From positions 124,001 through 188,000 of the forward strand of contig NZ_AP023248.1 of assembly GCF_016756535.1 (NCBI RefSeq): DNA of 64,000 nt. The letters are read 5' to 3'. Below the pieces are notes generated by a model. The model saw only the letters and a program-made list of their open reading frames with translations. It made no database searches and had not been told where the DNA came from. The first letter of the stretch is position 1. The number at the start of each line of letters is the position of its first letter. This DNA comes from Mesorhizobium sp. 131-2-1. Lineage in GTDB: Bacteria > Pseudomonadota > Alphaproteobacteria > Rhizobiales > Rhizobiaceae. Both the position numbers and the translations under genes were made by a program. Below are positions 11,848 to 50,194 of the stretch, piece after piece.

Positions 11848-13176
11848 CTAGCCTCTGACCTTGATGAGCGCGCGCTCTAGGGATGCAAGGAAGAGATCGA
11901 CATGCTCGGCCTGGCAAACCAGCGGCGGGCGCACCTTGAGTGTGTCCTCACTAGCCCCTGTCGAGCTGATAAGAACGGCATCATCCCGCATTGCGTTGAC
12001 CACATCCAAAGCCATTGCACGCCGGCTCGCTGCCGGAGCGCCTTCAGGACCCATGTCGACGCCAATGAAGAGTCCGGCATTTCGGATCCCACGAACGCCA
12101 TCATGTCGCTTTGCGATTTTCTCCACGCCCGCGCGGAGGCGCTGGCCCATGGCAAGCGCATTCTGGGGGATCTGATCACGTTGCAGGATCGTCAGTACAG
12201 CGTCTGCGGTCGCGATGCCAACCGTATTGCCGGCGAACGTGTTCGAGTAGCGCGCAGTGGCGCCGAACCGCTCCATCGGGGATTTGCGGCCAACGACAGC
12301 GCCGATCGGAAATCCGTTGCCCATCGGCTTGCCTAGGGTCACGAGATCCGGAACGATCCCGTGCCGCTCGAAGCCCCACATATGGGCGCCCGTTCGCCCG
12401 AAGCCCGGTTGAACTTCGTCGGCGATGACGAGGCCACCAGCCTCCCGCACAGTCGCCACGCCGCTGGCGATGAAGCCAGGCGGATCGACCCACACGCCGT
12501 CGCTGGAAAAGATACTGTCCATAAGCAGGGCCGCAACGCCGATGCCACGACGGTTCAGATCCAGAATGGCTGAACGGACCTGCGCCTGGAAGAAGTCCGC
12601 GGCCTGGGCTTCTGGCATGCCGGACGGTCCGGGCAGCGATACCATGCGCACGAACGGGCTGAGATTGACTGCGTCGCCCAGGTTCGGCGACACCGCGGCG
12701 ACCGCAGCGCTTGTGCCGTGATACGCATAGGAGGATACGATCACGCCTTCGTTGCCGCTGGCAAATCGCGCGATTCGCAAGGCCAGATCGTTGGATTCGC
12801 TCCCCGTGCAGGTGAAAACGACCCGATCAATTTCGTTCGGGAAGGTATCGACCAACCGCTCGGCATAGTCGACAAGTCTCGGCTCGAGATAGCGCGTGTT
12901 GGCGCTGATCTGGCCCGCCTGCTCGGCCATAGCGGCATTCACTTCCGGGTGGCAGTGGCCGAGAGACGGCACGTTATTGTAGAAGTCGAGATAGGCCCGC
13001 CCGTCAGGATCGTACAGCCACATCCCTTCGCCGCGAACAAAGTGCACGGGCCGGCGATATTGCAGCCGATAAGAAGCCCCTAGAACGCCGTCGCGGCGGG
13101 CAATCAGCTCCGCCTCGCGCCTGGGAAGGTGGGATGCGCCGGGTCTGTAACGATTAGGCATGAGATCTGTGGACAT
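11848..13176 (-). CDS. Class III aminotransferase-fold PLP enzyme, probable phospho-lyase (cassette A)
   Basis: A 442-residue fold-type I PLP enzyme. Seen motifs are YNNVPSLGHCHPEV, the phosphate-binding TGSESND (124-130), the PLP aspartate D253 in VIADEVQPGFGRTG and the PLP lysine K283 in LVTLGKPMGNG. The family includes aminotransferases, ethanolamine-phosphate phospho-lyase and 5-phosphohydroxylysine phospho-lyase. The gene directly follows (36-base gap) a phosphotransferase of hydroxylysine-kinase type, and the same pair occurs again at 45800-48243. I therefore infer that it removes phosphate and ammonia from a phosphorylated amino alcohol or hydroxy-amino acid to leave an aldehyde, which the aldehyde dehydrogenase at 15938 could oxidise. 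A plain transaminase role remains possible. Confidence 0.75.
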   Translation of the reverse strand: MSTDLMPNRYRPGASHLPRREAELIARRDGVLGASYRLQYRRPVHFVRGEGMWLYDPDGRAYLDFYNNVPSLGHCHPEVNAAMAEQAGQISANTRYLEPRLVDYAERLVDTFPNEIDRVVFTCTGSESNDLALRIARFASGNEGVIVSSYAYHGTSAAVAAVSPNLGDAVNLSPFVRMVSLPGPSGMPEAQAADFFQAQVRSAILDLNRRGIGVAALLMDSIFSSDGVWVDPPGFIASGVATVREAGGLVIADEVQPGFGRTGAHMWGFERHGIVPDLVTLGKPMGNGFPIGAVVGRKSPMERFGATARYSNTFAGNTVGIATADAVLTILQRDQIPQNALAMGQRLRAGVEKIAKRHDGVRGIRNAGLFIGVDMGPEGAPAASRRAMALDVVNAMRDDAVLISSTGASEDTLKVRPPLVCQAEHVDLFLASLERALIKVRG

Positions 13177-13212
13177 GTGCTGCTGCCTATCTGTGGGAGT
13201 AACTTGGTCGAT

Positions 13213-14334
13213 TCACCCTACTGGCGGCCGCGACGACGATATCGCGGCCACGACTGCCGCCTCGCCCGCTCTGCCATCAAGAGACGCCAAGATGGAGAGG
13301 CCGTGCTCGGCACGCGCGACGTTCTTTTTAATGTACTGGGCGTCAGCCGGGAAAAGGTGGGAGCGCCAGTAATTGACCAGGATCAATGCGCTTTGCCGCG
13401 CCCGCATCAGCCCGGCGAGCATACTTGCTTCCAGCGTCGAAAGCGCAATTACTGATGCATAGCCGGCAATCAGATGTTCGGCCCCACCCAAGGGAAGGGC
13501 CGGATCCTTTACCACGTGACTTGCTGCGATCGCCAGATCCTGAATCCTGGGGCTCCAGCAGCCATCGCCAAAATCAATAAACCCCACTCCCTGGCCAGTC
13601 ACCAGCATATTGAACGGGCTGGGATCATTGTGAGTGACCTGCCAGGCTACATTCGCGATTTGTGGCTCGATCAACTCCACATACTCGGCCATCGCCGCGC
13701 GGACGCTGTCGGCAATCCCACCGGATGGTAGGTATTGCTCCAGTTCCATCAGCCGCGACCAGCACCCGATATGCCAAAGAACAGGGCGATGGGCCGCGGG
13801 CACATTGACCCGCTCAAGGGCAAGGTCCAGCCGGGCCAGAGCGCTGCCAATTCGAAAAAGCAGCTCTGGAGCAGGCGTCTCCCAGTGCAGCGGAACGCCC
13901 TCAATCCGGCTCTGCAAGTACCCGCATACCCCCTCTTCCTCGAACATCAACGCGCCGCTGCCCGTGCGGAGCACTTCGGGTGCAACGAAGCCCCCAGCCC
14001 CTTGCAAGGCCGCCATGGCGGCGGTTTGGAAACGGAAGCTGCCAATCGCCTCCGGCCTTGTCGAGGTCTTCAGGATCAGTCGGCGGCCGTCCGTGAGGTT
14101 GACCTCGACCGTCCGCTCGACCTCGGAGGACAATGTCGCGATCAATCCCGCCAACCCATAATGGCGCTTCAGTAGTGCCGCCGGCATGTCCGGCTCGGCG
14201 GGATCCGGCCGAGCCGCCAGGATGGCGGCGGCTGCGCGAAAATAGGCCTCGGTTGAGGCTGCCGCGCAAGGCAGGTGGTCGCGTCCCGCAGCCAGGGACC
14301 TATTGTGCGGGACCAGATCGCTACAAGCACCCAA
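13213..14334 (-). CDS. APH-family phosphotransferase, hydroxylysine-kinase-like (cassette A)
   Basis: An aminoglycoside-phosphotransferase-fold kinase, 373 residues if the TTG at 14334 is used. Its catalytic loop is H235-N-D237-PSPF-N242 and its metal site is D254-F-G in GFIDFGDGCWSP, with LILKTS giving the ATP lysine near residue 89. The only in-frame ATG (14187) would start right at PAALLKRHYG and lose about 50 residues. TTG has GAGG about ten bases upstream, so the start is uncertain. Hydroxylysine kinase (HYKK) belongs to this fold and shares the GxIDFGD pattern. Lying between the HAD and PLP genes on one strand, it would phosphorylate the hydroxyl group on which the PLP enzyme then acts. 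Confidence 0.75.
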   Translation of the reverse strand: MGACSDLVPHNRSLAAGRDHLPCAAASTEAYFRAAAAILAARPDPAEPDMPAALLKRHYGLAGLIATLSSEVERTVEVNLTDGRRLILKTSTRPEAIGSFRFQTAAMAALQGAGGFVAPEVLRTGSGALMFEEEGVCGYLQSRIEGVPLHWETPAPELLFRIGSALARLDLALERVNVPAAHRPVLWHIGCWSRLMELEQYLPSGGIADSVRAAMAEYVELIEPQIANVAWQVTHNDPSPFNMLVTGQGVGFIDFGDGCWSPRIQDLAIAASHVVKDPALPLGGAEHLIAGYASVIALSTLEASMLAGLMRARQSALILVNYWRSHLFPADAQYIKKNVARAEHGLSILASLDGRAGEAAVVAAISSSRPPVG

Positions 14335-14496: not shown

Positions 14497-15165
14497 TCAG
14501 ATCCCGAACACGCCTGGTAGCTGCGTCACATCGCGGATTTCGGTGTACTCGTAATAGGGGTTGGCCGGCTCATGGCCGCGGTTTACCCAGACCTTGCTCT
14601 GGATGCCCAGATCATAGGCGGACATCAGATCATGGCGGAACGACGAGGAAACGTGCGTAATGTCCTCCGGGCCGCATCCGAGCATATCGAACATGTATTC
14701 GAACGCCTTGAAGTGCGGCTTGTAGGCGCCCGCCTCTTCGGCAGTTAAGACGGCATGAAAGGGCGCACCGAGCTTTGCCACGTTCGACGGAATCTGCGCC
14801 ACCATGGAGTTCGTCAGGGTTACCAGCGGAATTTCCTTGGCCAGTCTGGCCAATCCCGCGGGCACGTCCGGATGCGGTCCCCACGTCGGGATACGATTGT
14901 AGATCGTTTCAGCGTCTTCGGCACGGAACGGGACATTGTTGCGCCGGCAGGCGCGCTCGAGCGCGTTGTGGACGATATCCGCGTAGGGCTTCCAGTCCTG
15001 CATCACCTCATCGAGGCGGTAACCTTGGAAATTCCTGATGAATTCATCCATGCGCGGCCCATCCAGAAGATGACCGAGTAGGTCCCGAGCGGCTTCCGCC
15101 ATCTGGAAATTGATCAGCGTGCCGTGGCAATCGAAGGTTACGTATTTCGGCCGGAAGCGAGCCAT
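14497..15165 (-). CDS. HAD-superfamily hydrolase, type II haloacid-dehalogenase-like (cassette A)
   Basis: A 222-residue HAD protein. The nucleophile is D12 in YVTFDCHGTL, followed by a helical cap (GYRLDEVMQDWKPY), motif II in TLTNSM, the lysine of motif III in AGAYKPHFKAFEYM and motif IV in ITHVSSSFRHDLMSAYDLG. It belongs with L-2-haloacid dehalogenases, many of which act on phosphates or unknown substrates. A close relative, well over half identical by eye, is encoded at 49505-50194 in cassette B, with the same WGPHPDVPAGL and VWVNRGHEPANP signatures. Repeated pairing with the kinase/PLP genes suggests a role in that pathway, perhaps clearing a dead-end phosphate; this is inference. Confidence 0.8.
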   Translation of the reverse strand: MARFRPKYVTFDCHGTLINFQMAEAARDLLGHLLDGPRMDEFIRNFQGYRLDEVMQDWKPYADIVHNALERACRRNNVPFRAEDAETIYNRIPTWGPHPDVPAGLARLAKEIPLVTLTNSMVAQIPSNVAKLGAPFHAVLTAEEAGAYKPHFKAFEYMFDMLGCGPEDITHVSSSFRHDLMSAYDLGIQSKVWVNRGHEPANPYYEYTEIRDVTQLPGVFGI

Positions 15166-15937: not shown

Positions 15938-17392
15938 TTAGAAATAGCCGAGGATGGATTTGACCTCGAGATACTCCAACATGCCCTCGAGGCCGTACTC
16001 GCGCCCGTTTCCGGATTGCTTGAAGCCGCCAAACGGTGCGTGGGGATCCCAGGCCGGGTAGTTGAGATGCACCTGACCGGCGCGGATCCGCGACGCGACG
16101 TCCTTGGCTCGGTCCATATCTCTGCCCTGCACATGCGCCCCGAGGCCATAGACGGTGTCGTTGGCGATGGTGACGGCCTCCTCCACCGTCTCATATGGGA
16201 TGATGCAGAGGACCGGACCGAAGATTTCCTCCTGGGCAATACGCATGCCCGTGCGCACCTCGGAAAAAATGGTCGGCTTGACGTAGAGCCCGGCATTCAG
16301 GCCGCCTGGACGACCCTCCCCACCAGTGATGAGCTTCGCGCCTTCGGAAATGCCGACGCCGATCATGGTCTGGATTCTGTCGAACTGGGCTCGGTTGGCG
16401 ATCGCACCATGGGTGGTGGTCTCCGCCAGAGGATCGCCAACGACGATCTCGTCCGCGGCGCGCTCGGCTATCGACTCAATCTCCGCAAGCTGCGCGCGCG
16501 GCACGATCATGCGCGTTGGCGCGCTGCATGACTGACCGAGATTGCGGAAGGCGGCGGCTATGCCCAGAGAAATGGCGCGATCGAGATCAGCATCCGGCAG
16601 GACCACGTTCGGCGACTTACCGCCGAGCTCCTGCGCGACGCGCTTCACAGTCGGCGCTGCCGCCTGGGCCACCGCAATGCCTGCACGGGTAGAGCCGGTA
16701 ATCGAGATCAAATCGACGTTGGCATGGGACGCAAGAGCCGCCCCGACGCAGAGGCCGTCCCCATTGACGAGATTGAAGACACCCGCCGGGAAGCCGGCTT
16801 CCTCGATCGCCTCCGCGAACAGAAGGGCGCTCAACGGAGAGAGTTCACTTGGCTTCAGCACGAGTGTGCAGCCCGCGGCAAGTGCCGGCGCGACCTTGGC
16901 GGTGAGTTGGTAGAGCGGCCAGTTCCACGGCGTAATCAGCCCGCAGACACCGACCGGTTCGCGGGTGACGGCCGTGTGGCCGCGCTGCTCGACGAAGGTG
17001 AACGATGTCAGGACATCGCGGGCGGTCTTCACATGGGCAATGGCCAGCGGTACCTGCGCTGTGCGCGCATACCCGATCGACGCGCCCATTTCCAGGGTGA
17101 GGCATTGTGCAAGCAGTTCGCTGCGCGCTTCGAGCAACGCATGCAGGCGATCGAGCAAGCTCACGCGGTATTCCGGCTTTGTCCGGCTCCAGGTAGCAAA
17201 TGCCAGGCGGGCGGCGGAAACGGCTGCGTCCACATCCTCGCCGTTTCCGAGCGGAAACCTAGTCATGACCTTTTCCGTGGCCGGATTGATAACGTCGCCC
17301 GTAGCGGTGCCACTCGGCTCGCGCCATTCGCCGCCAATGAAGAACCTATCCACGCGGCCGTTGCGGGACAGGTGCTCGAGGGGTGCGGTCAT
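15938..17392 (-). CDS. NAD(P)-dependent aldehyde dehydrogenase (cassette A)
   Basis: A 484-residue ALDH. Key residues are the cofactor motif TPWNWPLYQ (near 154), E255 in AQELGGKSP and the catalytic C289 in LGQSCSAPTRM, with EEIFGPVLCI and the terminal PFGGFKQSGNGREYGLEG. It oxidises an aldehyde to the acid in the cytoplasm; the betaine-aldehyde/semialdehyde-type sequence does not fix the substrate. Its start overlaps the stop of a 47-codon frame upstream (ATGA at 17389-17392), so it belongs to the minus-strand run coming from the GNAT and D-threonine-aldolase-like genes. In the proposed pathway it would oxidise the aldehyde released by the PLP enzyme. Confidence 0.85.
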   Translation of the reverse strand: MTAPLEHLSRNGRVDRFFIGGEWREPSGTATGDVINPATEKVMTRFPLGNGEDVDAAVSAARLAFATWSRTKPEYRVSLLDRLHALLEARSELLAQCLTLEMGASIGYARTAQVPLAIAHVKTARDVLTSFTFVEQRGHTAVTREPVGVCGLITPWNWPLYQLTAKVAPALAAGCTLVLKPSELSPLSALLFAEAIEEAGFPAGVFNLVNGDGLCVGAALASHANVDLISITGSTRAGIAVAQAAAPTVKRVAQELGGKSPNVVLPDADLDRAISLGIAAAFRNLGQSCSAPTRMIVPRAQLAEIESIAERAADEIVVGDPLAETTTHGAIANRAQFDRIQTMIGVGISEGAKLITGGEGRPGGLNAGLYVKPTIFSEVRTGMRIAQEEIFGPVLCIIPYETVEEAVTIANDTVYGLGAHVQGRDMDRAKDVASRIRAGQVHLNYPAWDPHAPFGGFKQSGNGREYGLEGMLEYLEVKSILGYF

Positions 17393-17590: not shown

Positions 17591-18760
17591 CTACCAGCCG
17601 CGGATCCGCTCCCAGCGCGCTTCAATCTCGGGGCTCTCTCCGTTAACGACGCTGTAGAAGTCATGCTGCGCGGCCATTGCGCACGCATGGTTGGGCAGGA
17701 TACGGATTCGAGTCCCGACGGGGAGTTCGGGCATGCTCTTGCCGGACCCGCTGCGGATCGCGAGGATGCCGTGTTCCTGGCTGGCTTGTGCCACCACGAC
17801 ATCATCGAGCACGCGCCCACTTTCGTCGCAGACCACGCCGTAGCCCTGGTCGACACGCTGGTTCGCGGTTCCGCGGTCGCGCGAGAGGGCCATCCACCCC
17901 GCGTCGACCAGCACCCAGCCTTTTTCCGGCTTGGCGCCGATAACGGTGGCCAAAACGGAGATCGCGATATCGTCGATGGCACAGACCCCCACCCCGGACT
18001 GAACGAGGTCGAAGAACATGTAGACCCCGGCGCGCAACTCGGTGACGCCTTCCAGATTTTCGGCAAAGTGCGCGGTGGGCGTCGAGCCGAGGCTGACGAT
18101 CGGGCAGGCATGTCCGTGAGCGCGCAGGATTTGGGCTGCGCGCACGGTGGCGGAACGCTCGTTCTCGGCTGCCTTCACCAGCGCGTCGGGCGTGCTCAAG
18201 CCATAGGACTCACCGGCATGGGCGAGGACGCCGACAAGGTTGGCGCCCGCTGCGACAACCTTGTCGGCCACCTCGACCAGCGTGGGATCATCCGGCTTCA
18301 ATCCGCCGCGATGGTCATCGCAATCCAGTTCGATGAAGACTGATGGCACAACGCCCGTTGCCTTGCGCACATCGGCTAGGGCATCGGCCTGTGCTACGGT
18401 ATCGAGGAGCAGTTTGAGATCGGCCCCCGTGCGGCGACAAAGCTCCATGGCGCGCACGGCCGAAGCCGGCGACATGCCGACGGCATAGGTCATGTCGCGA
18501 AAGCCATGGCCGGCGAAATATTCCGCCTCGGCGATGGTCGAGACCGTGATCGGACCGGGCCCGTCCGGGAACGTTTGTCGGGCGACGTCGACGCTCTTGG
18601 CCGTCTTCATGTGAGGGCGCAACACAACCCCGAGCTTTCTAGCGTGGTCGGCAAGACGATGGATATTGCGCTGGAGTTTCTCGCGATCCAAAAGCATGGA
18701 CGGGGTGACGAGGGCGTCGATTGTTTTGGCTGCTTCACGCATCTTTGCATTCGACTCCAT
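17591..18760 (-). CDS. D-threonine-aldolase/D-serine-dehydratase-like PLP enzyme (cassette A)
   Basis: A 389-residue fold-type III (alanine-racemase-like barrel) PLP protein. Seen are the N-terminal TPSMLLDREKLQRNIHRL, the lysine region LRPHMKTAKS, ELDCDDHRGG, GSTPTA, LRAGVYMFFDLVQSGVG and a C-terminal metal pair in LPNHACAMAAQHDFYSVV (His and Cys as in D-serine dehydratase). Family members cleave D-beta-hydroxy amino acids to glycine plus an aldehyde, or deaminate D-serine. Start: ATG 18760; ATG 18742 is the alternative. It lies 16 bases behind the GNAT gene on the same strand. Together with the L-threonine aldolase at 24994 the region can open beta-hydroxy amino acids of both configurations. 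Confidence 0.8.
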   Translation of the reverse strand: MESNAKMREAAKTIDALVTPSMLLDREKLQRNIHRLADHARKLGVVLRPHMKTAKSVDVARQTFPDGPGPITVSTIAEAEYFAGHGFRDMTYAVGMSPASAVRAMELCRRTGADLKLLLDTVAQADALADVRKATGVVPSVFIELDCDDHRGGLKPDDPTLVEVADKVVAAGANLVGVLAHAGESYGLSTPDALVKAAENERSATVRAAQILRAHGHACPIVSLGSTPTAHFAENLEGVTELRAGVYMFFDLVQSGVGVCAIDDIAISVLATVIGAKPEKGWVLVDAGWMALSRDRGTANQRVDQGYGVVCDESGRVLDDVVVAQASQEHGILAIRSGSGKSMPELPVGTRIRILPNHACAMAAQHDFYSVVNGESPEIEARWERIRGW

Positions 18761-18776
18761 CGCTGCCACATCCTCA

Positions 18777-19640
18777 TCAACCGAACGACTGGTTTGCCAA
18801 GGCATACAGGCGGGTCGTCCCGTCGGAAGTCGGCCGCTGCCCCTTAACCATGGCGGTCGCATTGCCGACTCGCTTGAGGCCCAAGCGCTCCAGCCAGTCG
18901 CTCAACCCGTGTTCGGCGTTGACGTCAATGCGCACGAACTGCCCAGGAAGCATCGCAAGGTGAGCCAAGATCAGGCGTTGCGCGTCGTGGGCACTTTCGG
19001 CCGCGGTGGGGCCGATGACGTAGCCGCGCCCGAACCTCCTGGCGATGGCGTAGCCCGCAACTCGCCCGCCGCGGTCGACCACCACCACGTCACCCGCATC
19101 GGCAAGTGCAGCCACCATCGTCTGACGGGACATGCCCGATGCCCGTTGGTCGAAGGAGTGGATCGCCGGGAGGTCGGAAACAGTCGCCGGGCGGATGTCG
19201 TCGCGGCCGTCCGGCGTCACGGCGATAGTCAGCGGGCCTTGGTGTTGGTGCACCATGCCCAAGGCGGTGAAGCCGCGCCGCTCGTAGAGCGTCAGCCCCT
19301 CCTCAGTGGAATTGAGCAGCACGTTCCGCTCGCCAGTCGCTGCAAGTAGGCCATCGAAGAGCTGCGAGCCAAAGCCGCTGCCTTGTGCGGAGGCGGTGAC
19401 GATGATCATGCCGGCGCTGGCATAGGCTCCGTAGTTCCACCACATGGCCGTGCCGAACACGTCGCCTGCCCGCTCCAGCACCAGGCCGTGGCCCACCATC
19501 GCAGCGAACGCCCAGTCCTCCCGGCGATAAGGCCAGCCCATCTCCTGCGACAGCTTCAGCGCGCCCGGCACGTGACGGCTTTCAAAATTCATCAGCTCGA
19601 GCGGGGTGCTGAGTGTTCTTCTTACGTGTTCGAGGGTCAT
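18777..19640 (-). CDS. Two-domain GNAT acetyltransferase (cassette A)
   Basis: A 287-residue protein with an N-terminal GNAT domain (GTAMWWNYG, the acetyl-CoA loop TASAQGSGFGSQLF, LLNSTEEGLTLYERRGF) and a second GNAT-like C-terminal domain of the YitH/HolE type (RPATVSDLPAIHSFDQRASG, GRVAGYAIARRFGRGYVIGP, GQFVRIDVN, GLSDWLERLGL). A protein of the same architecture is encoded at 42114-42989 in cassette B (matching GTAMWW/GSAMWF and RFGRGYVIGP/EFGGGFVIGP). Substrate unknown; N-acetylation of an amino acid or amine in the pathway is plausible. It heads the minus-strand run, divergent from the cyclodeaminase-like gene at 19864. Confidence 0.8.
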   Translation of the reverse strand: MTLEHVRRTLSTPLELMNFESRHVPGALKLSQEMGWPYRREDWAFAAMVGHGLVLERAGDVFGTAMWWNYGAYASAGMIIVTASAQGSGFGSQLFDGLLAATGERNVLLNSTEEGLTLYERRGFTALGMVHQHQGPLTIAVTPDGRDDIRPATVSDLPAIHSFDQRASGMSRQTMVAALADAGDVVVVDRGGRVAGYAIARRFGRGYVIGPTAAESAHDAQRLILAHLAMLPGQFVRIDVNAEHGLSDWLERLGLKRVGNATAMVKGQRPTSDGTTRLYALANQSFG

Positions 19641-24920: not shown

Positions 24921-24993
24921 GGAGCGTGCGCGAACTAGTAAACTGGCACCGAAATTCGGTGGCACAGTAATTCACTCCGACAGGTTCTCAATC

Positions 24994-42113: not shown

Positions 42114-42989
42114 ATGCAAAGATCAGTGCGCCTGAAATCTTTCGAACTGGTCGCGCGCGACATTGATGATGTCGACGTAAAGCTGCTGCATGCGCTCTCG
42201 ATTTCGGTCCGGTGGCCGCATCGACCAAAGGATTGGGAACTGCTGCGCCGTGCCGGCCGGGGTATCGTTGCTGTGGACGGGATCGGACGGGTTTTCGGCA
42301 GTGCGATGTGGTTTCCCCATGGGAACGATTTCGCCACCATCGGTTTGGTCATCACAACGCCCCGCACGCAAGCGCAGGGAGGCGGTCGATGGCTCATGGA
42401 CTTGGTTCTGAAAGAGTGTGGCGATCGCAGCTTGACGCTCAACGCCACCCACGCTGCATATCCTCTCTATGTCTCACTCGGCTTCACCGCCGAGGCGACC
42501 GTATACTTGCGCCAAGGCGAGGTCTTACAGACGCTCCCAGTTCCGAACTTGGACGGCGAATTGAAGGCCCTGTCGAGCGATAGGCTAAAGGAGATCGCGG
42601 CGCTGGATACGCGCGCGTTTGGGACAAACCGCGAGAGGTTGCTCGCGTTGCTCTCCGAGGATGCCTCAATTTACACTTTGAGCCGTAGCGGCGAGATCGT
42701 CGGGTATTCCATGTGTCGCGAATTCGGGGGTGGTTTTGTAATCGGCCCGATCGTCGCGCGCGACGAACTTGACGCGATCCATCTTACAGCTGTGCATCTG
42801 AAAAATCTGATCGGGCGGTTCGTCCGCGTCGACTCGCGCGAAAAGGACGGCGCGTTTGCCGAGTTCCTCCAGAAGAGCGGCCTTGATATCGCGGAGTCTG
42901 TTACGACCATGTCCAAAGGGCGCCGCTTCCTCAACCGAGAACACAACGAACCTTGGGTTTACGGGCTGGCCAGCCACGCATTCAGCTGA
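42114..42989 (+). CDS. Two-domain GNAT acetyltransferase (cassette B)
   Basis: A 291-residue protein with the same double-GNAT architecture as that encoded at 18777-19640. The N-terminal part has SISVRWPHRPKDWELL, GRVFGSAMWFPHGND, the acetyl-CoA loop TPRTQAQGGGRWLMD and LNATHAAYPLYVSLGF. The C-terminal part has IAALDTRAFGTNRERLLALL, GEIVGYSMCREFGGGFVIGP and IGRFVRVDSREK. The substrate is unknown; occurrence in both cassettes argues for a pathway function. AAAGGAG lies 14 bases before ATG 42114, a long spacing, so a slightly different start is possible. It is divergent from the cupin gene. Confidence 0.78.
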   Translation: MQRSVRLKSFELVARDIDDVDVKLLHALSISVRWPHRPKDWELLRRAGRGIVAVDGIGRVFGSAMWFPHGNDFATIGLVITTPRTQAQGGGRWLMDLVLKECGDRSLTLNATHAAYPLYVSLGFTAEATVYLRQGEVLQTLPVPNLDGELKALSSDRLKEIAALDTRAFGTNRERLLALLSEDASIYTLSRSGEIVGYSMCREFGGGFVIGPIVARDELDAIHLTAVHLKNLIGRFVRVDSREKDGAFAEFLQKSGLDIAESVTTMSKGRRFLNREHNEPWVYGLASHAFS

Positions 42990-43395: not shown

Positions 43396-44718
43396 TCAGA
43401 TGGCGGCAATGTCCAGCTTCGAACCGTCGACCAGACGCGACAGCCGGAACGGTGTGGGATCGACGGAAGGTGTGTCGTTCACGACAAGCTCTGCAGCCAG
43501 ATAGCCGAGCCCCGGGCCCAAACCGAAGCCGTGACCCGAGCAGCCCGCCGCGAGGACGAGACCTTTCACCCCCTCGATCTGCGAGACCACAGGCACCGCG
43601 TCCGGCGTGCAATCGACGAAGCCACCCCAGGCGCTATCGATCTCTAAATCGCGAAGTTGGGGAAACGTTTTCCGGACACTCTCCACCACTTGGCCCACCA
43701 GCCATTTCAAGGGCGGTGGATCCAGCACGCGATTCTGTTCGAAGATCCGATCATCGTTGGTCAGCAGCGCCTGTATTGAATCCGGACCCGAAATGAACGA
43801 ATGACCGACGCCGAGCCTGACGTTCTTCAGGCGGCGCAAGAACTGCGGCATGAATTCCCGGCAATACCGGATAGCCTGGGGCGTGATTTCGAGGTTCGCC
43901 TTTCCGCTAATCGCAAGCGTATAGCTGCCGTCCAGTCGGCGCGTGATCGTGCAGTAGGGCGTGGAGACCGCTTCGCCTATGTTGATTGTCGGGGTGGAAC
44001 GCAGTGCGGTCTGCCTGATGCTCGCTTGGGGGAAACTGATCCCGAGGGGCCGAAGGAAGCGCGAGGACCAAGCGCCGGCGGCGCACAGCACCGCGCTGGT
44101 TCTGATGTGACCCTTCTCGGTATGCACGCCCGCAATCTTGCCATTGGTCAAGTCGAGCGCCCGCGCGGCGCATCCCTGGTGGATCGTGGCGCCCAGAGCT
44201 CTGGCCCCTTCGGCGATAGCCGGCGCGGCGAGCGCAGGTTCGGCCTTGCCGTCCCGCTCCGAATAGGTCCCGCCGACCCATTTGTCGCGCGCTTCGGGGA
44301 CGCGCTTGGCCACCTCCGCCCGGCTCAGCACTCGGGTTTCGACCTCGTACTCCCTGGCGACCTCGCGCCACCTTTCCCAGCCGGCGAGCACAGCCTCGTC
44401 GTGGGTCGCATAGACGAGACCGCAGCGTCGGAATCCGAGGTCCCGATTGATATCGCGCGTGAGCTCGTCCCACAGTCGCATGGAGATCACCGAGAGCGGC
44501 AGTTCGCGCCGGTCGCGGTTCTGCTGGCGGCACCAACCCCAGTTTCGGCTCGATTGTTCACAGGCGACGTAGCCCTTCTCAAGGAGCGCCACAGAGAGGC
44601 CACGCTTCGCCAGGTAGTAGGCGGCCGTAGACCCGAGGATGCCCCCGCCGATGATGACGACGTCGGCCTCGGCCGGGAGACGCTCATCGCTGTGAATGCG
44701 TTCTACGCGGGGCGACAT
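43396..44718 (-). CDS. FAD-dependent D-amino-acid/glycine-oxidase-like enzyme (cassette B)
   Basis: A 440-residue DAO-superfamily flavoprotein. The FAD motif is DVVIIGGGILGSTAAYYLAKRG (about residues 20-42; conserved GGGILG). It is followed by the signature SSRNWGWCRQQNRD, which marks a subgroup of uncharacterised oxidases, then GLVYATHDEAVLAGW, SVGHSF-like FISGPDSIQ, DSAWGGFVDCTPDAVPV and CSGHGFGLGPGLGYLAAEL. It would oxidise an amino acid or secondary amine to the imine with release of peroxide or electrons. ATG 44718 is chosen from the domain start. It is the last gene of the minus-strand run kinase-PLP enzyme-GntR-oxidase. Only a tail-like remnant of an oxidase is present in cassette A. 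Confidence 0.82.
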   Translation of the reverse strand: MSPRVERIHSDERLPAEADVVIIGGGILGSTAAYYLAKRGLSVALLEKGYVACEQSSRNWGWCRQQNRDRRELPLSVISMRLWDELTRDINRDLGFRRCGLVYATHDEAVLAGWERWREVAREYEVETRVLSRAEVAKRVPEARDKWVGGTYSERDGKAEPALAAPAIAEGARALGATIHQGCAARALDLTNGKIAGVHTEKGHIRTSAVLCAAGAWSSRFLRPLGISFPQASIRQTALRSTPTINIGEAVSTPYCTITRRLDGSYTLAISGKANLEITPQAIRYCREFMPQFLRRLKNVRLGVGHSFISGPDSIQALLTNDDRIFEQNRVLDPPPLKWLVGQVVESVRKTFPQLRDLEIDSAWGGFVDCTPDAVPVVSQIEGVKGLVLAAGCSGHGFGLGPGLGYLAAELVVNDTPSVDPTPFRLSRLVDGSKLDIAAI

Positions 44719-45056
44719 GTTCAAACCAACCTCGGCTGCCAAGAATGCGGAAGCAAAGTTCCGATCAGCCCTTGATCGCATCGCGCACTCGATAGAATGT
44801 GCCGAAATCATCCAGGACCTCGCAAGATGTTTGGGTTTTTGACCGCTTGATCGATAAGAGTTGCTCAAGCGCCGACCGAGTTCCAGTTCGGCGTAGAGCG
44901 GCGCAACATGCTCGCGTGCTCGTTATCGCACTTGTGGGCCTGCTCCTCTTTCGGCCGGTGGCGTTGAAAAACTCGCGTTTGCGCTTGCGTCGAACCGGCG
45001 GCTCAGAGCCGCCTGGCAGGTATCGTTTCTAGCTGTCAATCCACAGAGCGGGCTGG
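44719..45056. other. Spacer between GntR gene and flavin oxidase gene
   Basis: About 340 bases on the minus-strand run without a recognisable gene. It may carry a separate promoter for the oxidase gene. Nothing further seen. Confidence 0.35.
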
Positions 45057-45722
45057 TCAGCGTTGATCAAGCAATTTGATCTGGAGATCTTCCCAGTGCT
45101 CCTTGAAGGCTTCTCGGGCGGTGTCGTAGTGGCGGCTTCTCAGGCCGTTGATGAGCCGCTCGTGCTCTAACGCCATTTCCTCAGCCGTCCCATAGAAATC
45201 CTGCCGCTGGACGAGGAGAAGCTCGATCTCGCCTTCTAGGCCCGAATAGGTTCGCCCCAGTCGAACGCTCCCACTCGCCGCGACAATGGCGCGATGGAAG
45301 TCGCGGTCCGCGGTAACCAGCGCGGACCTGTCAGAGGACAGGGTCGAGGCGTGCATGACCGCGACCGCCTTGAGCGCCAAGGGCGGAATGACTCCGGTCA
45401 GCACGATCAAACGAATGGCTTCGCCCTCTATGGCGCCCCGCACACGTGTGATGTCGACAATGTCGTCAGGTCCGAATTCGGGCAGCACGAACCCTCGGTT
45501 CGGTATTTGACGCAGCAAGCCCTGGGTGACGAGTATCTGGGCCGCCGTACGGAATGTGTGCCGTGAGGTCGAATGCTCCTCGCACATTCTGGCGTCGCGG
45601 AGGAATTCGCCAGGCTGGAAATCTCCCGACAAGATGCGCCCTCGCAGGTCGTGCGTCAGGGCTTCTACCGCGCTAACGGGGAAAGGCTCAGCGTTGGTTT
45701 CTATGTCTTGGACTTGCTTCAT
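45057..45722 (-). CDS. GntR-family regulator, FCD (FadR) subgroup
   Basis: A 221-residue regulator. The winged helix-turn-helix covers ALTHDLRGRILSGDFQPGEFL, RDARMCEEHSTSRHTFRTAAQ and LVTQGLLRQIPNRGFVLP. The helical effector domain has DIVDITRVRGAIEGEAIRL, DRDFHRAIVAASGS and LEHERLINGLRSRHYDTAREAFKEHW, giving the metal-binding Asp/His set of the FCD fold. The recognition helix (STSRHTFRTAA) departs from the common SRTPVREAL. ATG 45722 is preferred over the TTG at 45776. It sits between the PLP gene (77 bases upstream) and the oxidase gene, and probably controls cassette B. Confidence 0.85.
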   Translation of the reverse strand: MKQVQDIETNAEPFPVSAVEALTHDLRGRILSGDFQPGEFLRDARMCEEHSTSRHTFRTAAQILVTQGLLRQIPNRGFVLPEFGPDDIVDITRVRGAIEGEAIRLIVLTGVIPPLALKAVAVMHASTLSSDRSALVTADRDFHRAIVAASGSVRLGRTYSGLEGEIELLLVQRQDFYGTAEEMALEHERLINGLRSRHYDTAREAFKEHWEDLQIKLLDQR

Positions 45723-45799
45723 GGCCTTGGTCGTCGATGTTGCGCGTGCAGCTTCATATGCGGCGATGTAGGGCAAGGAAGATCATGCTGTATCGCACC

Positions 45800-47170
45800 C
45801 TACTTCTGCACGGACCGAAGCGCCTCGTCGAGGCCCTCCAGCAGACGTCCTGCGTTGGACGATGTGAAGACAAGCGGAGGCCTAATCTTGAGGATATTGG
45901 CATCTGCTCCCGTCGCGGAAATGAGGATGCGCCGGTCGCGCAAGGCGTTGACGGCCGCTAGCGCACGGTCCATGTCCGGAATCTTCCGGTCGCGATCTTT
46001 GACGAGTTCGACGGCGAAATAGAGGCCCGTCCCCCGAACATCGCCGACGAATTCGTACTTGTTTTGCAGGTCGCGGAGGCCGTCGAGGATTTCGCCGCCG
46101 ACCTTGGTAGCGTTGTCCATCAAACCCTCTTCGACAATCGTGTCGAGCACGGCCTGCGCAGCGGCGATGGCGACGGAGTTGCCACCGAACGTGTTGAAGT
46201 AGCGCATGCTGGACCCGAATTCGGCCACGAGTTCGGGCCGCACCACCAAGCCCGCAACGGGATAACCGTTGCCCATAGGCTTTCCAAGGGTGACGATATC
46301 CGGATCGACCTCGTGACGGGCGTGCCCCCAAAGGTGGGTACCGGTCCGCCCGAAACCGGATTGTACTTCGTCGGCTATGAACAGGCCTCCGGCCTTGCGT
46401 ACTACTTCGGCCACCGGCGCCAACGCGTCCGTGGGCTCGACATAGAGACCATCGGAGGAGAAGACGGGGTCAGCGATGAAGGCAGCGAGGCCCCCGCCAT
46501 GCCTCTCGAGGTCGGCAATCTGTCGCGCAGTATCCTCCGCCATCCGCCGCCCGATTTCCTCGACGGGCAGACGGTAGGAATCAGGCGCGGCGACCGTTCG
46601 AACATAGGGATCGAGGGCCGATTTCTTGCCGAGTGACGGCGAGATTGCTGCCACCGCGCCGCTGTTGCCGTGATAGGCCTCGGCCGTGACAATGACGCCG
46701 GTCTTGCCCGTGTGGTACCGCGCGATGCGCAAGGCAAGGTCGTTGGCTTCCGAACCTGTGCAGGTAAACATCGCGCATCCGGTTCGCCCGAGTTCACCAT
46801 CGAAGGTATCAATCAGGGCTTCGGCGTAGTCCAGCAGGGGCTCCTGCATGTAGCGCGTGTGGGTGCAGAGCGTCTCGAACTGCTTCTGGATCGCCGCAAC
46901 GACGCGCGGATGAGCGTGTCCTAGCGACACCACGTTATTGTAGGCGTCGAGATATTCGTTGCCATGCTTGTCATAGAGGAAGACGCCCTTGGCGCGGGAA
47001 ATCTCCACCGGCGATCTATAGAATAGCCGATAAGCGGGGCCAAGCAGCCTTTGCCGCCTGGCCACATGCGCAATGTCTTCACCTGGGAGATGAGACGCGT
47101 CCTGAGGGTTGAAGCCATTGGCCATGTCGCCACGGTAGCCCTTAGGCAGGGCAGTCGCTTGTTTGGGCAT
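45800..47170 (-). CDS. Class III aminotransferase-fold PLP enzyme, probable phospho-lyase (cassette B)
   Basis: A 456-residue relative of the cassette A enzyme. Shared marks are AYRLFYRSPVEISRAKG, YLDAYNNVVSLGHAHP, CTGSEANDLALRIARYHTGKTG, AEAYHGNSGAVAAISPSLG, the PLP aspartate D267 in FIADEVQSGFGRTG and the PLP lysine K297 in IVTLGKPMGNGYPV. The start ATG 47170 shares a base with the TAA of the phosphotransferase gene upstream, a tight translational link that mirrors the cassette A order kinase then PLP enzyme. Such pairing is known for hydroxylysine kinase with phosphohydroxylysine phospho-lyase. The alternative start ATG 47125 is less likely. Confidence 0.78.
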   Translation of the reverse strand: MPKQATALPKGYRGDMANGFNPQDASHLPGEDIAHVARRQRLLGPAYRLFYRSPVEISRAKGVFLYDKHGNEYLDAYNNVVSLGHAHPRVVAAIQKQFETLCTHTRYMQEPLLDYAEALIDTFDGELGRTGCAMFTCTGSEANDLALRIARYHTGKTGVIVTAEAYHGNSGAVAAISPSLGKKSALDPYVRTVAAPDSYRLPVEEIGRRMAEDTARQIADLERHGGGLAAFIADPVFSSDGLYVEPTDALAPVAEVVRKAGGLFIADEVQSGFGRTGTHLWGHARHEVDPDIVTLGKPMGNGYPVAGLVVRPELVAEFGSSMRYFNTFGGNSVAIAAAQAVLDTIVEEGLMDNATKVGGEILDGLRDLQNKYEFVGDVRGTGLYFAVELVKDRDRKIPDMDRALAAVNALRDRRILISATGADANILKIRPPLVFTSSNAGRLLEGLDEALRSVQK

Positions 47171-48243
47171 TACAGTTCCTCTCGGGTCAGAAGATCGGAT
47201 ATTTGTGCGGTCGACACTGAGTTGAACCACTCCAGATGAGCCCACCCGGCTTCGGTGTGGCGCAGAATGTAGCGGCTGTTCTCAGGGAACATCTCGGCGC
47301 GCCAGCAGGTCAGAAGCGCGCGGACCGCAAGTCGGCCCATTGCCAGGAAAGGGATAAGCCGGAGTTCTTCGTCCGTCAGTTCGGCATAGCGAAGATAGCC
47401 GCGCAGAACATCGCGCGGTTCATCGAACAGGTCACGCCGGTTCGCATGGTCGATGGTCTTTGGCATCTGATTCATCAACGCAGTGGACACGTCGACCGCG
47501 ATGGCGGTGCGGACGGCATCGCCAAAATCGATGACCCCAGTCAGGAACTGCGGGCTGGCGTGGTCAACGACCAGGTTCGACGTATTGAAGTCGTTGTGGA
47601 GCACTTGCCGCCGGCACAGGTCGAGCCGCGGCTTGATCTCGGCAAACCGCTCCAGCGCGCGGACGGTCCACGCCCGCTTGCCGCCCTCTGGAATGAAGCT
47701 CAAGAGATCGGAGAGATCGAGCAGATGGGTGACGTCCCATGCCAGCGCCCGATCGTCCGCGGGATGGGAAAAATCGGCCATTGAATGACGTAGCTTCGCC
47801 AAGACCTCGCCAATCCGTTCGCGCTGTGGGGCGGTGGAAGTCGTCCGGTCGAGCGGCGCACCGCAGAGGAAGGTGATGAGCCGCACCACTCTCCGCTCGC
47901 CGGCACTGGTCGTGACGATGGGCAAATCCGCGCCGTCGACGCCGCGATGTGCACGGGGGATGGGTAGGTCAGGAGCCCGCTGCTCGAGATGGCGCAACAG
48001 CGCGACCTGGAAATCGAGTTCCTCCACCCGCTCGGAAGGATGAGCGATCTTCAACACGAACTTCCCTCGGCCGGCGCAATCGAGGAGGAACGTGTCGTCT
48101 TTCTCGGTTTCAAAGCGTGTGGCCGAGCCACGCACGCCATATAGAAGTTTGGCGATTTCTTCGGCTTCCGCCGCACCCACAGGATGGCACGCCTCGGAAA
48201 GCTCCGAGGTGCGCGCCGGCTGAACCTGATGATTGTGACCCAT
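47170..48243 (-). CDS. APH-family phosphotransferase, hydroxylysine-kinase-like (cassette B)
   Basis: A 357-residue kinase with FVLKIAHPSERVEELDFQVALL (ATP-lysine region), the catalytic loop H216-N-D218-FNTS-N223 in VLHNDFNTSNLVV and the metal motif D239-F-G in GVIDFGDAVRTAIAVDV. The last pattern is typical of the hydroxylysine kinase subgroup of the aminoglycoside-phosphotransferase fold. It is the first gene of the minus-strand run and faces an AT-rich 620-base intergenic region shared with Lrp copy 2. It probably phosphorylates the hydroxyl of a hydroxy-amino acid or amino alcohol, making the substrate of the PLP enzyme encoded next. Confidence 0.78.
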   Translation of the reverse strand: MGHNHQVQPARTSELSEACHPVGAAEAEEIAKLLYGVRGSATRFETEKDDTFLLDCAGRGKFVLKIAHPSERVEELDFQVALLRHLEQRAPDLPIPRAHRGVDGADLPIVTTSAGERRVVRLITFLCGAPLDRTTSTAPQRERIGEVLAKLRHSMADFSHPADDRALAWDVTHLLDLSDLLSFIPEGGKRAWTVRALERFAEIKPRLDLCRRQVLHNDFNTSNLVVDHASPQFLTGVIDFGDAVRTAIAVDVSTALMNQMPKTIDHANRRDLFDEPRDVLRGYLRYAELTDEELRLIPFLAMGRLAVRALLTCWRAEMFPENSRYILRHTEAGWAHLEWFNSVSTAQISDLLTREEL

Positions 48244-48867
48244 CTTCCACTCAATTCTTATGCTGCCTCAAGAGTGCGCAGCGCCGCTTGACTATCTCAC
48301 ATTCCATTTTTGTACAACAATTTGTTTCTCAATCAAGGCGATTGCCGTTTTGGGATCGAAGGTCGCAGTCCAATTTTGACCCAATTTTCGACAGGATCAT
48401 GCAAGTGGCCTGGATGCACTTTAACTGGAAGGAGCAGTAATATTGAGGCATATCAATGGTATACCAAGCCGTGGTCGAGGCGCGGTTCGCGATATACCAA
48501 CGCTGATGAAAACTGGCTGGACGTTTGATGCCCCTATCAATTGTTGGACAATCTATTGCAATCGCCGCCTCGCTATGCTTTTATGCTCCGGCGGAACCGG
48601 AGTGCGGCAGCCGGCGCGGCGCTCGGCCTGGGTGGGGTGGGCCGACGTGAAAATGGGGAATGAAATGAAACTGGTCAGATGCCTTGAAGGTACCCACGTC
48701 GCTACGGCATCGCGGTCCGTCGGCACGCTCGACCTTCTTAAGCAAACAGCGTTGATCGGGGGCCTAGCTGGGCGAGTTCAAGCAAGACGGTCCGCCAACA
48801 ACCATGCAGCGTCGCCAATGCGAGGCGCCAGGCCACCCGCGGCACCAATATGGGACGGACTTTCCAC
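48244..48867. promoter_or_regulatory. Divergent control region between kinase B and Lrp copy 2
   Basis: About 620 bases without a supportable gene. The part 48290-48570 is AT-rich for this window and contains TTGTACAA, CAATTTGTTT and two TATACCAA repeats near 48462 and 48495, the kind of loosely repeated AT-rich DNA that Lrp proteins bind. No exact operator can be named. Confidence 0.4.
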
Positions 48868-49344
48868 ATGAAGCTCGACAAGATCGACATCAAGATCCTG
48901 TCTGAGCTGCAGAAGAGCGGGCGGATCTCGAACGTCGAGCTTGCGGACTTGGTCAGCCTCTCGGCAAGCCCGTGCTTGATGCGGGTGAAGAAGCTGCAGG
49001 AGGAGGGCTTCATCATAGGCTATTCTGCCCGGGTCGACCTGGCCAAGCTGGGTCAGACAGTGACGGTCTTTACCGAGATCACGCTCAAGAACCATCGCCC
49101 CACAGATTATTCGCGGTTCCTCGCGACGGTCGAGAAGATCGATTGCGCGATCGAGTGTCACCTTGTGTCTGGCGGCTACGATTATCTGGCGAAGTTCGTC
49201 ACGCCGGGGATCAGCGAGTATCAGGCGATCATGGAGCGCTTGCTCGAGCTCAACATCGGGATCGACAAATATTTCAGCTTCGTGGTGCTGAAATCGCCGA
49301 TCGTTAAAGCGCACCTGCCGATTGACGCGATCGCTACTCACTAG
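48868..49344 (+). CDS. Lrp/AsnC-family regulator, copy 2
   Basis: A 158-residue regulator, same length as copy 1 at 38792-39268 and very similar throughout (LDKIDIKILSELQKSGR, NVELADLVSLSASPCLMRV, VTVFTEITLKNHRP, IECHLVSGGYDYLAKFV, KYFSFVVLKSPIVKAHLP). N-terminal helix-turn-helix and C-terminal RAM ligand domain are complete. It stands between the kinase/PLP genes (divergent) and the HAD gene (downstream, same strand), so it probably senses an amino acid of this pathway and acts on the AT-rich regions on both sides. Confidence 0.88.
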   Translation: MKLDKIDIKILSELQKSGRISNVELADLVSLSASPCLMRVKKLQEEGFIIGYSARVDLAKLGQTVTVFTEITLKNHRPTDYSRFLATVEKIDCAIECHLVSGGYDYLAKFVTPGISEYQAIMERLLELNIGIDKYFSFVVLKSPIVKAHLPIDAIATH

Positions 49345-49504
49345 AGATTGAGATTCAGAAGATAATCTGCCAAATAAATTGCAAAATACAAAACAATCCG
49401 CTTCAAATGGCGAAAAATTTGGCAAATGATATTCTGTATTCCATACTACGTTGGTGCGACTTGAACAGGAATTCTGTGTCGTAGAATTAAAGGGAACACA
49501 CACC
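49345..49504 (+). promoter_or_regulatory. AT-rich leader of the HAD gene with GCCAAAT/ATTTGGC dyad
   Basis: About 160 bases, strikingly A/T-rich compared with the flanking genes. GCCAAAT at 49369-49375 and its complement ATTTGGC at 49417-49423 form a dyad separated by A-tracts. It is a plausible Lrp binding region directly behind the lrp gene. It also contains the ribosome site AAAGGG before ATG 49505. Confidence 0.45.
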
Positions 49505-50194
49505 ATGACCACTTTTATACCGAAATATGTCACCTTCGACTGCTACGGCACGCTGACTAACTTCGATATGGCTGGTGCAGCGCGGCGTGTGTACGCCGAG
49601 CGTCTCTCCGTTGAGGCGATGGCCAGCTTCGTCGAGGCTTTCAGAGGCTATCGCCTGGACGAGGTGCTGGGGTCATGGAAACCTTTTCTCGAGGTGGTGC
49701 ACAATGCCGTTGAACGCAGCTGCAAGCGCATCGGTATCCAGTTCAAACCCGAAGACGCGCGACGCATCTATGACGAAGTGCCAACGTGGGGTCCGCACCC
49801 GGACGTCCCGGCAGGACTCACCAAGGTGGCCAAGGAAATCCCACTGGTGATCCTGTCGAACTCGATGAACGACCTGATCATGTCGAATGTGGAAAAGCTC
49901 GGCGCGCCCATTCACACCGTCATCACCGCTGAAGAGGTTGGCGCCTACAAGCCACTGATGAAGGGCTTTGAATACATGCTCGACAAGCTCGGCTGCGGTC
50001 CCGAAGACATCACTCATGTTTCCTCCTCCTTCCGCTACGACCTGATGCCGGCCTATGATCTGGGGATCAAAAACAAGGTCTGGGTCAACCGCGGTCACGA
50101 ACCCGCCAATCCTTTCTATGAATACACCGAGATCAAGGATATCGGCGGACTTGCCGCCGCCGTAGGCTTGGATCCCGCCCGGAAGCGCGCCTGA
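49505..50194 (+). CDS. HAD-superfamily hydrolase, type II haloacid-dehalogenase-like (cassette B)
   Basis: A 229-residue relative of the protein encoded at 14497-15165. The nucleophile is D12 in YVTFDCYGTL, with cap helices GYRLDEVLGSWKPFLEVVHNAVERSC given here as GYRLDEVLGSWKPF, motif II LSNSM, the lysine in VGAYKPLMKGFEYM and ITHVSSSFRYDLMPAYDLG. More than half of all residues match cassette A by eye, including WGPHPDVPAGL and VWVNRGHEPANP. ATG 49505 follows AAAGGG. A terminator hairpin follows at 50234. Its function is unknown; conservation in both cassettes is the main clue. Confidence 0.82.
   Translation: MTTFIPKYVTFDCYGTLTNFDMAGAARRVYAERLSVEAMASFVEAFRGYRLDEVLGSWKPFLEVVHNAVERSCKRIGIQFKPEDARRIYDEVPTWGPHPDVPAGLTKVAKEIPLVILSNSMNDLIMSNVEKLGAPIHTVITAEEVGAYKPLMKGFEYMLDKLGCGPEDITHVSSSFRYDLMPAYDLGIKNKVWVNRGHEPANPFYEYTEIKDIGGLAAAVGLDPARKRA

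Follow-up and report, generated by a model that had tools for sequence, protein, structure and literature searches.

Gene content of the two cassettes

The stretch of DNA analysed here (the window; 64,000 nucleotides, bases 124001–188000 of the second contig, of 285,993 bases, of a 7.1-Mb genome in two contigs) carries two cassettes, A and B, that share five gene types: a class III pyridoxal phosphate (PLP) enzyme of phospholyase type (PLY), an APH-fold kinase (KIN), a type II hydrolase of the haloacid dehalogenase (HAD) family without a DxD motif, a double GNAT protein and an aldehyde dehydrogenase. We tentatively explain them, at a little under even confidence for the explanation as a whole, as non-duplicate kinase–phospholyase arms of one amine-catabolic island. 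Gene calls and Pfam bore out the ten genes and five homologous pairs that a first-pass annotation of this DNA had listed, with kinase and PLP enzyme as neighbours in each cassette. Cassette A, on the reverse strand, comprises A-PLY (11848–13176), A-KIN (13213–14334), the A-HAD (14497–15165), an aldehyde dehydrogenase (15938–17392; PF00171, 508 bits) and a double GNAT (18777–19640; PF18014 and PF13508). Cassette B comprises a GabD-like aldehyde dehydrogenase of the succinate-semialdehyde dehydrogenase (SSADH) type (39440–40987, reverse), a double GNAT (42114–42989, forward; PF18014, 68 bits), B-PLY (45800–47245, reverse; its true start is probably further in), B-KIN (47170–48243, reverse) and the B-HAD (49451–50194, forward). 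The two regulators previously reported around B are also present: GntR/FCD (45057–45776, reverse; PF07729 and PF00392) and Lrp/AsnC (48850–49344, forward; PF13412, PF13404 and PF01037). Mesorhizobium is the source of the top genus-named HAD homologue (86%), and the top plasmid match for 30–54 kb was pB2-1-1 of Mesorhizobium sp. B2-1-1 (46% of the query covered at 88%); we treat the replicon as a presumed Mesorhizobium-like plasmid or chromid.

Identity between A and B is 65% for the HADs, 46% for the PLP enzymes, 39% for the aldehyde dehydrogenases, 34% for the GNATs and 24.5% for the kinases (E = 8e-17). Catalytic motifs are intact in both cassettes: the PLP lysine in GKPMGNG, HND....N and IDFGD in the kinases, FDC[HY]GT and YKP in the HADs, and GQ[ST]C and ELGG in the aldehyde dehydrogenases. 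The two aldehyde dehydrogenases belong to different subfamilies: the B enzyme lies above the TIGR01780 SSADH cut-off (671 versus 646.35 bits; PRK11241, 693.7 of 828), whereas the A enzyme (340.3 bits) lies below it and below the curated cut-offs of all 25 models shown. A recent duplication of one cassette was ruled out by these identities together with the two PLP lineages in the tree described below.

Phospholyase-type PLP enzymes and their kinases

For both PLP enzymes, the phospholyases 5g4i and 6tor lead the solved proteins by a wide margin (A-PLY, 346 and 263 bits, next 172; B-PLY, 345.6 and 321.5 bits, next 180). We take 5g4i to be bacterial (Arthrobacter A1RDF1) and 6tor, an ethanolamine-phosphate phospho-lyase, to be a human protein. 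A-PLY and B-PLY fall in the PF00202 fold family and retain the PLP lysine. A tree of 85 rows from the 149 available (61 family members, 21 HAD-linked and 40 random; 22 random transaminases; 2 PDB sequences), built by a quick method and with 5g4i, 6tor and some transaminases marked as long branches, split the family with 5g4i and 6tor from the 22 transaminases (SH-aLRT 100). Thirty-three columns, NNV among them, are kept in at least 93% of the 61 family members and in at most 20% of the transaminases, and 22 of these are identical in both 5g4i and 6tor. Structure-sequence matches, tree and columns thus place both enzymes closer to known phospholyases than to transaminases, and their predicted identity as phospholyases, as first proposed, is well supported by sequence. 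A-PLY and B-PLY occupy separate clades, and HAD-linked PLP enzymes appear in at least four places of the tree (the A clade; B with P. viridiflava; a Pseudomonas/Cupriavidus/Massilia/Sphingomonas clade; and Actinobacteria).

Both kinases have the APH fold with HxDxxxxN and the metal-binding Asp (A-KIN: PF01636, 82 bits, with HNDPSPFN and IDFGD; B-KIN: PF01636, 92 bits, with one PDB match, 6ef6). In the model of the fused protein PRK06148, an APH–M23–aminotransferase chain, both kinases match best the APH half (the top NCBIfam hit of A-KIN; 196.9 bits for B-KIN) and both PLP enzymes the aminotransferase half. The cassette proteins are separate chains and score 121–467 bits against a cut-off of 1128, whereas a true fusion of APH, M23 and class III domains occurs in a relative (G021, locus L182; 1663.5 bits). 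Because the halves are fused both in this model and in L182, kinase and lyase are supported as consecutive enzymes. Together with the phospholyase grouping, the fusion upholds the kinase, phospho-lyase and dehydrogenase logic of the first-pass annotation, and we consider this general chemistry likely. Around related PLP enzymes, a cassette-type kinase lay in the fetched stretch at 48 of 80 loci, the best 80 among the matches listed, and the cassette-type HAD at 11 of the 80. These frequencies exceed chance, given that the HAD subfamily (E ≤ 1e-60) occurs at any position in only 28 of 398 phylum genomes.

Cassette HAD hydrolases

Both HADs exceed the cut-off of TIGR01428 (haloacid dehalogenase type II; A-HAD 181 and B-HAD 171.6 versus 125.4 bits). 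The phosphatase motif of HADs has a second Asp (DxD); in all 65 cassette-type HADs this position (+2) holds Tyr or His, which ruled out a phosphatase for a phospho-amino acid, and we take the protein to be a putative dehalogenase-type hydrolase. Asp12, Thr16, Asn119, Lys149, Asp179 and Arg196 are present in 65 of 65 and likewise in 3smv, 8hp5 and 18 HADs resembling L-azetidine-2-carboxylate hydrolase (AC2H). By sequence, the nearest solved proteins of A-HAD are 8hp5 ((S)-2-haloacid dehalogenase; 79.8 bits) and then 3smv (AC2H; 72.6 bits), and those of B-HAD are 3smv (75.3 bits) and then 8hp5. In the HAD tree, the 65 cassette-type proteins form their own clade, sister to AC2H, and the 18 AC2H-like HADs group with 3smv and 8hp5. 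Tree grouping therefore failed to place the cassette HADs within AC2H, and we do not file them there, because the clade is a sister one and the structure ranking is mixed. The title of a solved relative, 8hp7, states trapping with (2R)-4-amino-2-hydroxybutanoic acid. As the role of the HAD we prefer, at slightly less than even odds, a ring opening: the ring would be strained and lie alpha to a carboxylate, as in azetidine-2-carboxylate and its hydroxylated or N-substituted forms. Members of the subfamily (E ≤ 1e-60) occur in 17 of the 199 order-level and 28 of the 398 phylum-level genomes searched.

Linkage of A and B on plasmids

A search of 72,556 plasmid records (A-type PLP enzyme at least 77% identity, B-type at least 88%) found the A-type gene in 28 and the B-type gene in 18, 16 of the latter carrying both; several records are near-identical strains, which lowers the effective sample size. 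Spacing in the 16 shared records was 4.5–10.7 kb in eight, 37–53 kb in three and 88–241 kb in five (window, 34 kb). In R. sophoriradicis and R. etli, about 9 kb separate the two PLP genes, and plasmids pCC511_2 and pRetIE4771d hold both arms in one run: SSADH, cupin, GNAT, GntR, B-PLY, B-kinase, B-HAD, threonine/serine dehydratase, ornithine cyclodeaminase family (OCD), A-HAD, A-kinase, A-PLY, Lrp, oxidase, RidA and DSD1. The RidA-family protein of these islands scored 95.6 of 106.25 against TIGR00004, and the R. etli run continues into an ABC importer with the same composition as that of the window. Both arms also lie side by side in S. shofinae and in genome G461, and both PLP genes were found on the plasmid of Sinorhizobium fredii NGR234. 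On Aminobacter pAA02, arm A is accompanied, as in the window, by OCD, homoserine kinase, threonine synthase and the importer, and B-PLY lies at a distance of 37 kb. Outside the window, five HAD-bearing regions among 56 (L041, L048, L049, L086 and L148) and annotated plasmids contain the full five-gene set, which confirms co-occurrence in other genomes.

Two independent cassettes, separately acquired and acting on unrelated substrates, would be consistent with the low kinase identity, the two PLP lineages, the differing regulators and aldehyde dehydrogenase subfamilies, the 12 of 28 A records that lack B and the five widely spaced records. We consider this unlikely, given that A accompanies B in nearly all B records and is adjacent to it in several genera. 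The suggestion that two copies serve two substrates is thus weakened as regards separate units, although two related substrates remain likely. Both kinase–lyase versions are, for the most part, inherited jointly on plasmids of nodulating bacteria.

A smaller arrangement was seen on a plasmid of Novosphingobium sp. ES2-1 (L181): HAD, kinase and PLP gene have recombinases as neighbours, and a TonB receptor follows at some distance. No other part of the island was seen in the 31 kb, making this a minimal version.

A wider HAD-centred cluster

Several genes in or at the cassettes were missed by the first-pass annotation. They comprise a fold III PLP enzyme of the D-serine dehydratase (DSD)/D-threonine aldolase family (17591–18862, reverse; PF14031 and PF01168), an OCD-family protein, perhaps an imine reductase (19864–20799, forward; PF02423), a small cupin (41355–41735, reverse; PF05899, 75.8 bits) and an FAD amine oxidase (DAO; 43396–44868, reverse; PF01266, 244 bits). 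Also overlooked, between the cassettes and on the reverse strand (31219–38081), were a second FAD amine oxidase (31219–32634; PF01266, 190 bits; top NCBIfam model AmaA L-pipecolate oxidase, at 127.6 of the 600 bits required) and the adjoining SBP_bac_5-type ABC importer (32588–38081; Pfam), made up of permeases (32588–33502 and 33499–34518), a binding protein (34528–36225) and a fused ATPase (36222–38081); the same importer gene set is annotated in R. etli, Aminobacter and Alloyangia islands. The nearest solved structures of the binding protein gave no pointer to its ligand.

We compared 43 HAD-seeded regions, which together cover every one of the 46 places listed in genomes other than that of the window (four regions shorter than 20 kb), with 86 control regions around related PLP enzymes without HAD. 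Genes were assigned by best BLAST match (E 1e-10, 40% of reference) to reference proteins from the window and from L040, L048 and L051; references from HAD loci favour the HAD regions, and DAO, aldehyde dehydrogenase and ABC genes were loosely called. With this bias, HAD-seeded and control regions contained, respectively, DAO in 40 and 10, GNAT in 35 and 0, the SBP_bac_5 importer in 34 and 7, ALDH2 in 24 and 12, transaminase in 23 and 13, GabD in 20 and 6, a second, AC2H-like HAD in 18 and 0, tartrate dehydrogenase (TTC) in 16 and 2, A-type aldehyde dehydrogenase in 4 and 7, and DSD in 2 and 2. Kinase and PLY were present in four of the 43 HAD-seeded regions. A transaminase version of the cluster lies on the window's own chromosome (L040; G000:C1:2431501-2451500), with the importer, an AC2H-like HAD (128 bits to 3smv), GNAT, a cassette-type HAD (74%), an oxidase (top curated model L-pipecolate oxidase, 184.4 of 600 bits), SSADH (76%), cupin (69%), and a PRK05965 transaminase and a tartrate dehydrogenase above cut-off. 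On the Mesorhizobium B2-1-1 plasmid the island is likewise a transaminase version, kinase and lyase being absent in the 47 kb seen. The core of the cluster is HAD, amine oxidase, GNAT and importer, and kinase plus phospholyase is a rarer alternative or addition to the transaminase.

Proposed pathway and alternatives

Beyond the gene content, homology, conservation and co-occurrence observed above, we infer every reaction and substrate of the following pathway from gene content. Each kinase would act on H2N-CH2-CH(OH)-R and phosphorylate the hydroxyl that adjoins the terminal amine; the PLP enzyme paired with it would eliminate phosphate and ammonia via an enamine to give the aldehyde OHC-CH2-R, and the aldehyde dehydrogenases would oxidise this aldehyde. 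The HAD would make or release the amine upstream of the kinase, and the class III transaminase of the sister clusters would serve the same purpose for the amine that lacks the hydroxyl. Substrates could be C4 hydroxy-amino acids, for example 4-amino-2,3-dihydroxybutyrate or 2,4-diamino-3-hydroxybutyrate, from which the SSADH-type enzyme would receive malate semialdehyde or aspartate semialdehyde; parent compounds of larger size would be taken up through the SBP_bac_5 importer and be cut by the FAD amine oxidases. We hold such substrates, with this supply of parents, to be possible rather than probable, and nicotianamine or mugineic acids as the parents to be doubtful. The transaminase version would be accounted for if transaminase, SSADH and TTC converted 4-amino-2-hydroxybutyrate successively into malate semialdehyde, malate and pyruvate; with a hydroxyl beside the amine, kinase and phospholyase would reach the same semialdehyde without a transaminase, and two hydroxylated units would explain the two arms. 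RidA in the islands fits enamine release. RidA, the hydroxyaspartate-like enzymes (OCD, DSD and dehydratase; those of them that were scanned fell below curated cut-offs) and threonine aldolase would together fit β-hydroxy-α-amino acids with enamine intermediates. The island is real and conserved and arranges chemistry of a familiar type in a new way, and its substrate class is probably hydroxylated small plant amino acids.

Several observations weigh against the ring-opening and C4 parts of this proposal; the first of them, a contrast among HAD regions, works in both directions. The azetidine signal is borrowed from the sister, transaminase version: among the 56 HAD regions, an AC2H-like HAD occurs in none of the 17 with kinase and PLY versus 18 of the 39 without. 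Core genes are also rarer with kinase and PLY (17 versus 39 regions: importer 6 versus 32, GNAT 7 versus 32, DAO 10 versus 37, GabD 3 versus 20, transaminase 3 versus 22), a contrast biased by the finding of 13 of the 17 via the PLP enzyme. In addition, the predicted HAD structure (pLDDT 80.7) has a clear fold that leaves azetidine, epoxide and halo-acid substrates unseparated: the Foldseek top ten are cis-epoxysuccinate hydrolases, with AC2H and halo-acid enzymes within 1 Z. Commoner with kinase and PLY are OCD (5 of 17 versus 2 of 39) and a serine/threonine-dehydratase-like enzyme (5 of 17, one of them a weak 24% match at L100, versus 1 of 39). The contrast between the 17 and 39 regions suggests a different, perhaps hydroxylated substrate.

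The Foldseek ranking favours instead a HAD that hydrolyses an epoxide (cis-epoxysuccinate-like) or halo-acid, in an island that degrades an epoxide or halogen compound and whose tartrate dehydrogenase takes tartrate. The passing of the TIGR01428 cut-off, TTC in 16 of the 43 HAD-seeded regions and Arg50, present in 65 of 65 cassette-type HADs and without counterpart in 3smv or 8hp5, are also consistent with this. Sequence, however, ranks azetidine-hydrolase types higher than epoxide hydrolases (A-HAD, 79.8 versus 56.2 bits; B-HAD, 75.3 versus 35.1 bits), a separate AC2H-like HAD is present in 18 of the 43 regions, and amine oxidase, transaminase and GNAT would have no role, so that we judge this alternative improbable, at about the level of independent cassettes. 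Simple amino alcohols are less probable still: ethanolamine or 1-aminopropan-2-ol would be converted to acetaldehyde or propionaldehyde, in keeping with the closest solved enzymes, one of which is named ethanolamine-phosphate phospho-lyase, and with family members in Erwinia, Pantoea and Pectobacterium; kinase plus phospho-lyase routes for amino alcohols were reportedly described in Erwinia and Pseudomonas in the 1970s, although the aminopropan-2-ol route was not found in the literature searched. Such substrates would leave no need for a peptide/opine-type importer, amine oxidases or HAD, and the A and B lineages are far from that of Erwinia in the PLP tree. Least probable of all is hydroxylysine catabolism as in animals (5-phosphohydroxylysine to 2-aminoadipate semialdehyde to aldehyde dehydrogenase), the substrate first suggested: the protein families match the animal kinase and phospho-lyase pair (reportedly described by Veiga-da-Cunha in 2012), an Lrp/AsnC regulator fits an amino-acid inducer and the lysine-route L-pipecolate oxidase is the top model for the oxidases at 31219–32634 and in L040, but none of the proteins and neighbours scanned passed a model specific for lysine or aminoadipate and those catabolic partners that exceeded a cut-off are of C4 type (SSADH and tartrate dehydrogenase), HAD, GNAT and importer are left without explanation, and the nearest enzymes among the solved proteins compared include an ethanolamine-phosphate phospho-lyase.

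In its most specific form, the two-arm island, found on large plasmids in rhizobia that associate with bean, soybean and pea, would be a pathway that breaks down azetidine plant metallophores, namely nicotianamine and mugineic acids. Mugineic acids contain β-hydroxy-α-amino units. The HAD would open an N-substituted azetidine ring, the FAD oxidases would cut secondary amines into C4 units, and the two kinase–phospholyase pairs would take 2,4-diamino-3-hydroxybutyrate to aspartate semialdehyde and 4-amino-2,3-dihydroxybutyrate to malate semialdehyde. We consider this form unlikely. The literature searched held nothing on nicotianamine or azetidine breakdown by a bacterial haloacid dehalogenase and no phytosiderophore-degradation genes in rhizobia, and the part of PMC8079746 available mentions no catabolic genes.

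A siderophore importer was set aside as main evidence for metallophores, being present in only two HAD regions, L049 and L172. In the former, a Devosia HAD cluster, positions 2510–5321 encode an EitA-like protein (552.7 of 640 bits), FecCD and an ATPase; the latter has FecCD and an ATPase by BLAST. Two further candidates were rejected: the importer at L045 is of the Peripla_BP_4/BPD_transp_2 type, and the window reading frame at 8384–10717, considered as a TonB receptor, turned out to be a Na/H exchanger with a Usp domain.

Relation to known systems

A-PLY and B-PLY share with the O-phosphoethanolamine-type phospholyases 5g4i and 6tor (presumably EC 4.2.3.2) the fold family, the PLP lysine, and NNV with other signature columns. 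They differ from these, and presumably from the 5-phosphohydroxylysine phospholyase PHYKPL, in their separate lineages, adjacent kinase and HAD–GNAT–oxidase context. The open-licence literature searched held no description of the cluster or its substrate, nor, judged by title and abstract start and apart from PMC8154272, a bacterial hydroxylysine kinase catabolic operon. The view of the route as little described is partly right, as 5g4i is already a solved phospholyase and the amino-alcohol routes of Erwinia and Pseudomonas were reportedly described earlier.

The azetidine-2-carboxylate (AZC) route of Pseudomonas and Aspergillus (AzhA/NgnA), with its hydrolase (3smv, 8ywo), resembles the cassettes in a HAD with an Asp nucleophile and no DxD and in a GNAT; it has a γ-aminobutyrate (GABA)-type transaminase downstream, whereas the cassettes have kinase and lyase instead, and a HAD of a sister clade with the extra Arg50. 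According to PMC8016842, the route consists of a HAD hydrolase, a GABA transaminase and a helper GNAT, and the hydrolase product is 4-amino-2-hydroxybutyrate. For the HAD and GNAT roles, earlier described as new, this combination of HAD, GNAT and transaminase is a possible precedent.

PbfA, the (R)-1-hydroxy-2-aminoethylphosphonate ammonia-lyase, is described in PMC8154272 as a class III PLP lyase on a β-hydroxy amine, and in this it resembles the proposed A-PLY and B-PLY; its model scored 165.5 and 218.9 bits with the cassette PLP enzymes (cut-off 525), and no phosphonate gene was above cut-off among the proteins scanned. BhcC and BhcD of the β-hydroxyaspartate cycle are the top curated models for the DSD and OCD proteins, far below their cut-offs (115 of 690 and 236.3 of 500 bits), and neither BhcA nor BhcB was found among the part of the window proteins scanned.

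Through the cassettes, the kinase plus phospho-lyase route for amino compounds would gain a set of bacterial genes, and carriers are predicted to draw carbon and nitrogen from a plant compound made of C4 hydroxy-amino units. Microbial turnover of plant iron chelators is known from soil work and, if the parent were indeed nicotianamine or mugineic acid, would acquire genes.

Other genes of the window

The stretch at 27520–31155, which lies between the two cassettes, encodes a homoserine kinase, a threonine synthase and the Kbl glycine C-acetyltransferase, each above its curated cut-off. They plausibly form a third kinase plus PLP phosphate-elimination set, a branch from homoserine to glycine and acetyl-CoA; the annotation of Aminobacter pAA02 also has homoserine kinase and thrC. 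A further run (21794–26028) encodes a four-carbon acid (D-threonate-type) kinase, PdxA, a cupin and a low-specificity threonine aldolase, and similar genes adjoin A-type cassettes in L045 and R. sophoriradicis and are found in the B2-1-1 transaminase version.

An NCS1 permease and hydantoinases B and A lie at 51554–57370, with caprolactamase models best but below cut-off. Hydantoinase A or B proteins were also seen in seven HAD-seeded regions (L137, L138, L139, L144, L145, L153 and L170; a count made in HAD regions only), hinting at a lactam step. A model of the A-type double GNAT (pLDDT 94.2) showed a clear predicted fold with 3ddd, a putative acetyltransferase, as top match and gave no substrate pointer. 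ARAGORN called a tRNA-Gly at 20063–20139, within the OCD-like gene and on the same strand, perhaps a false positive. At the edge of cassette B, a DUF4158 fragment (50707–51576), presumably from a domain of Tn3-type transposases, is a possible mobility scar.

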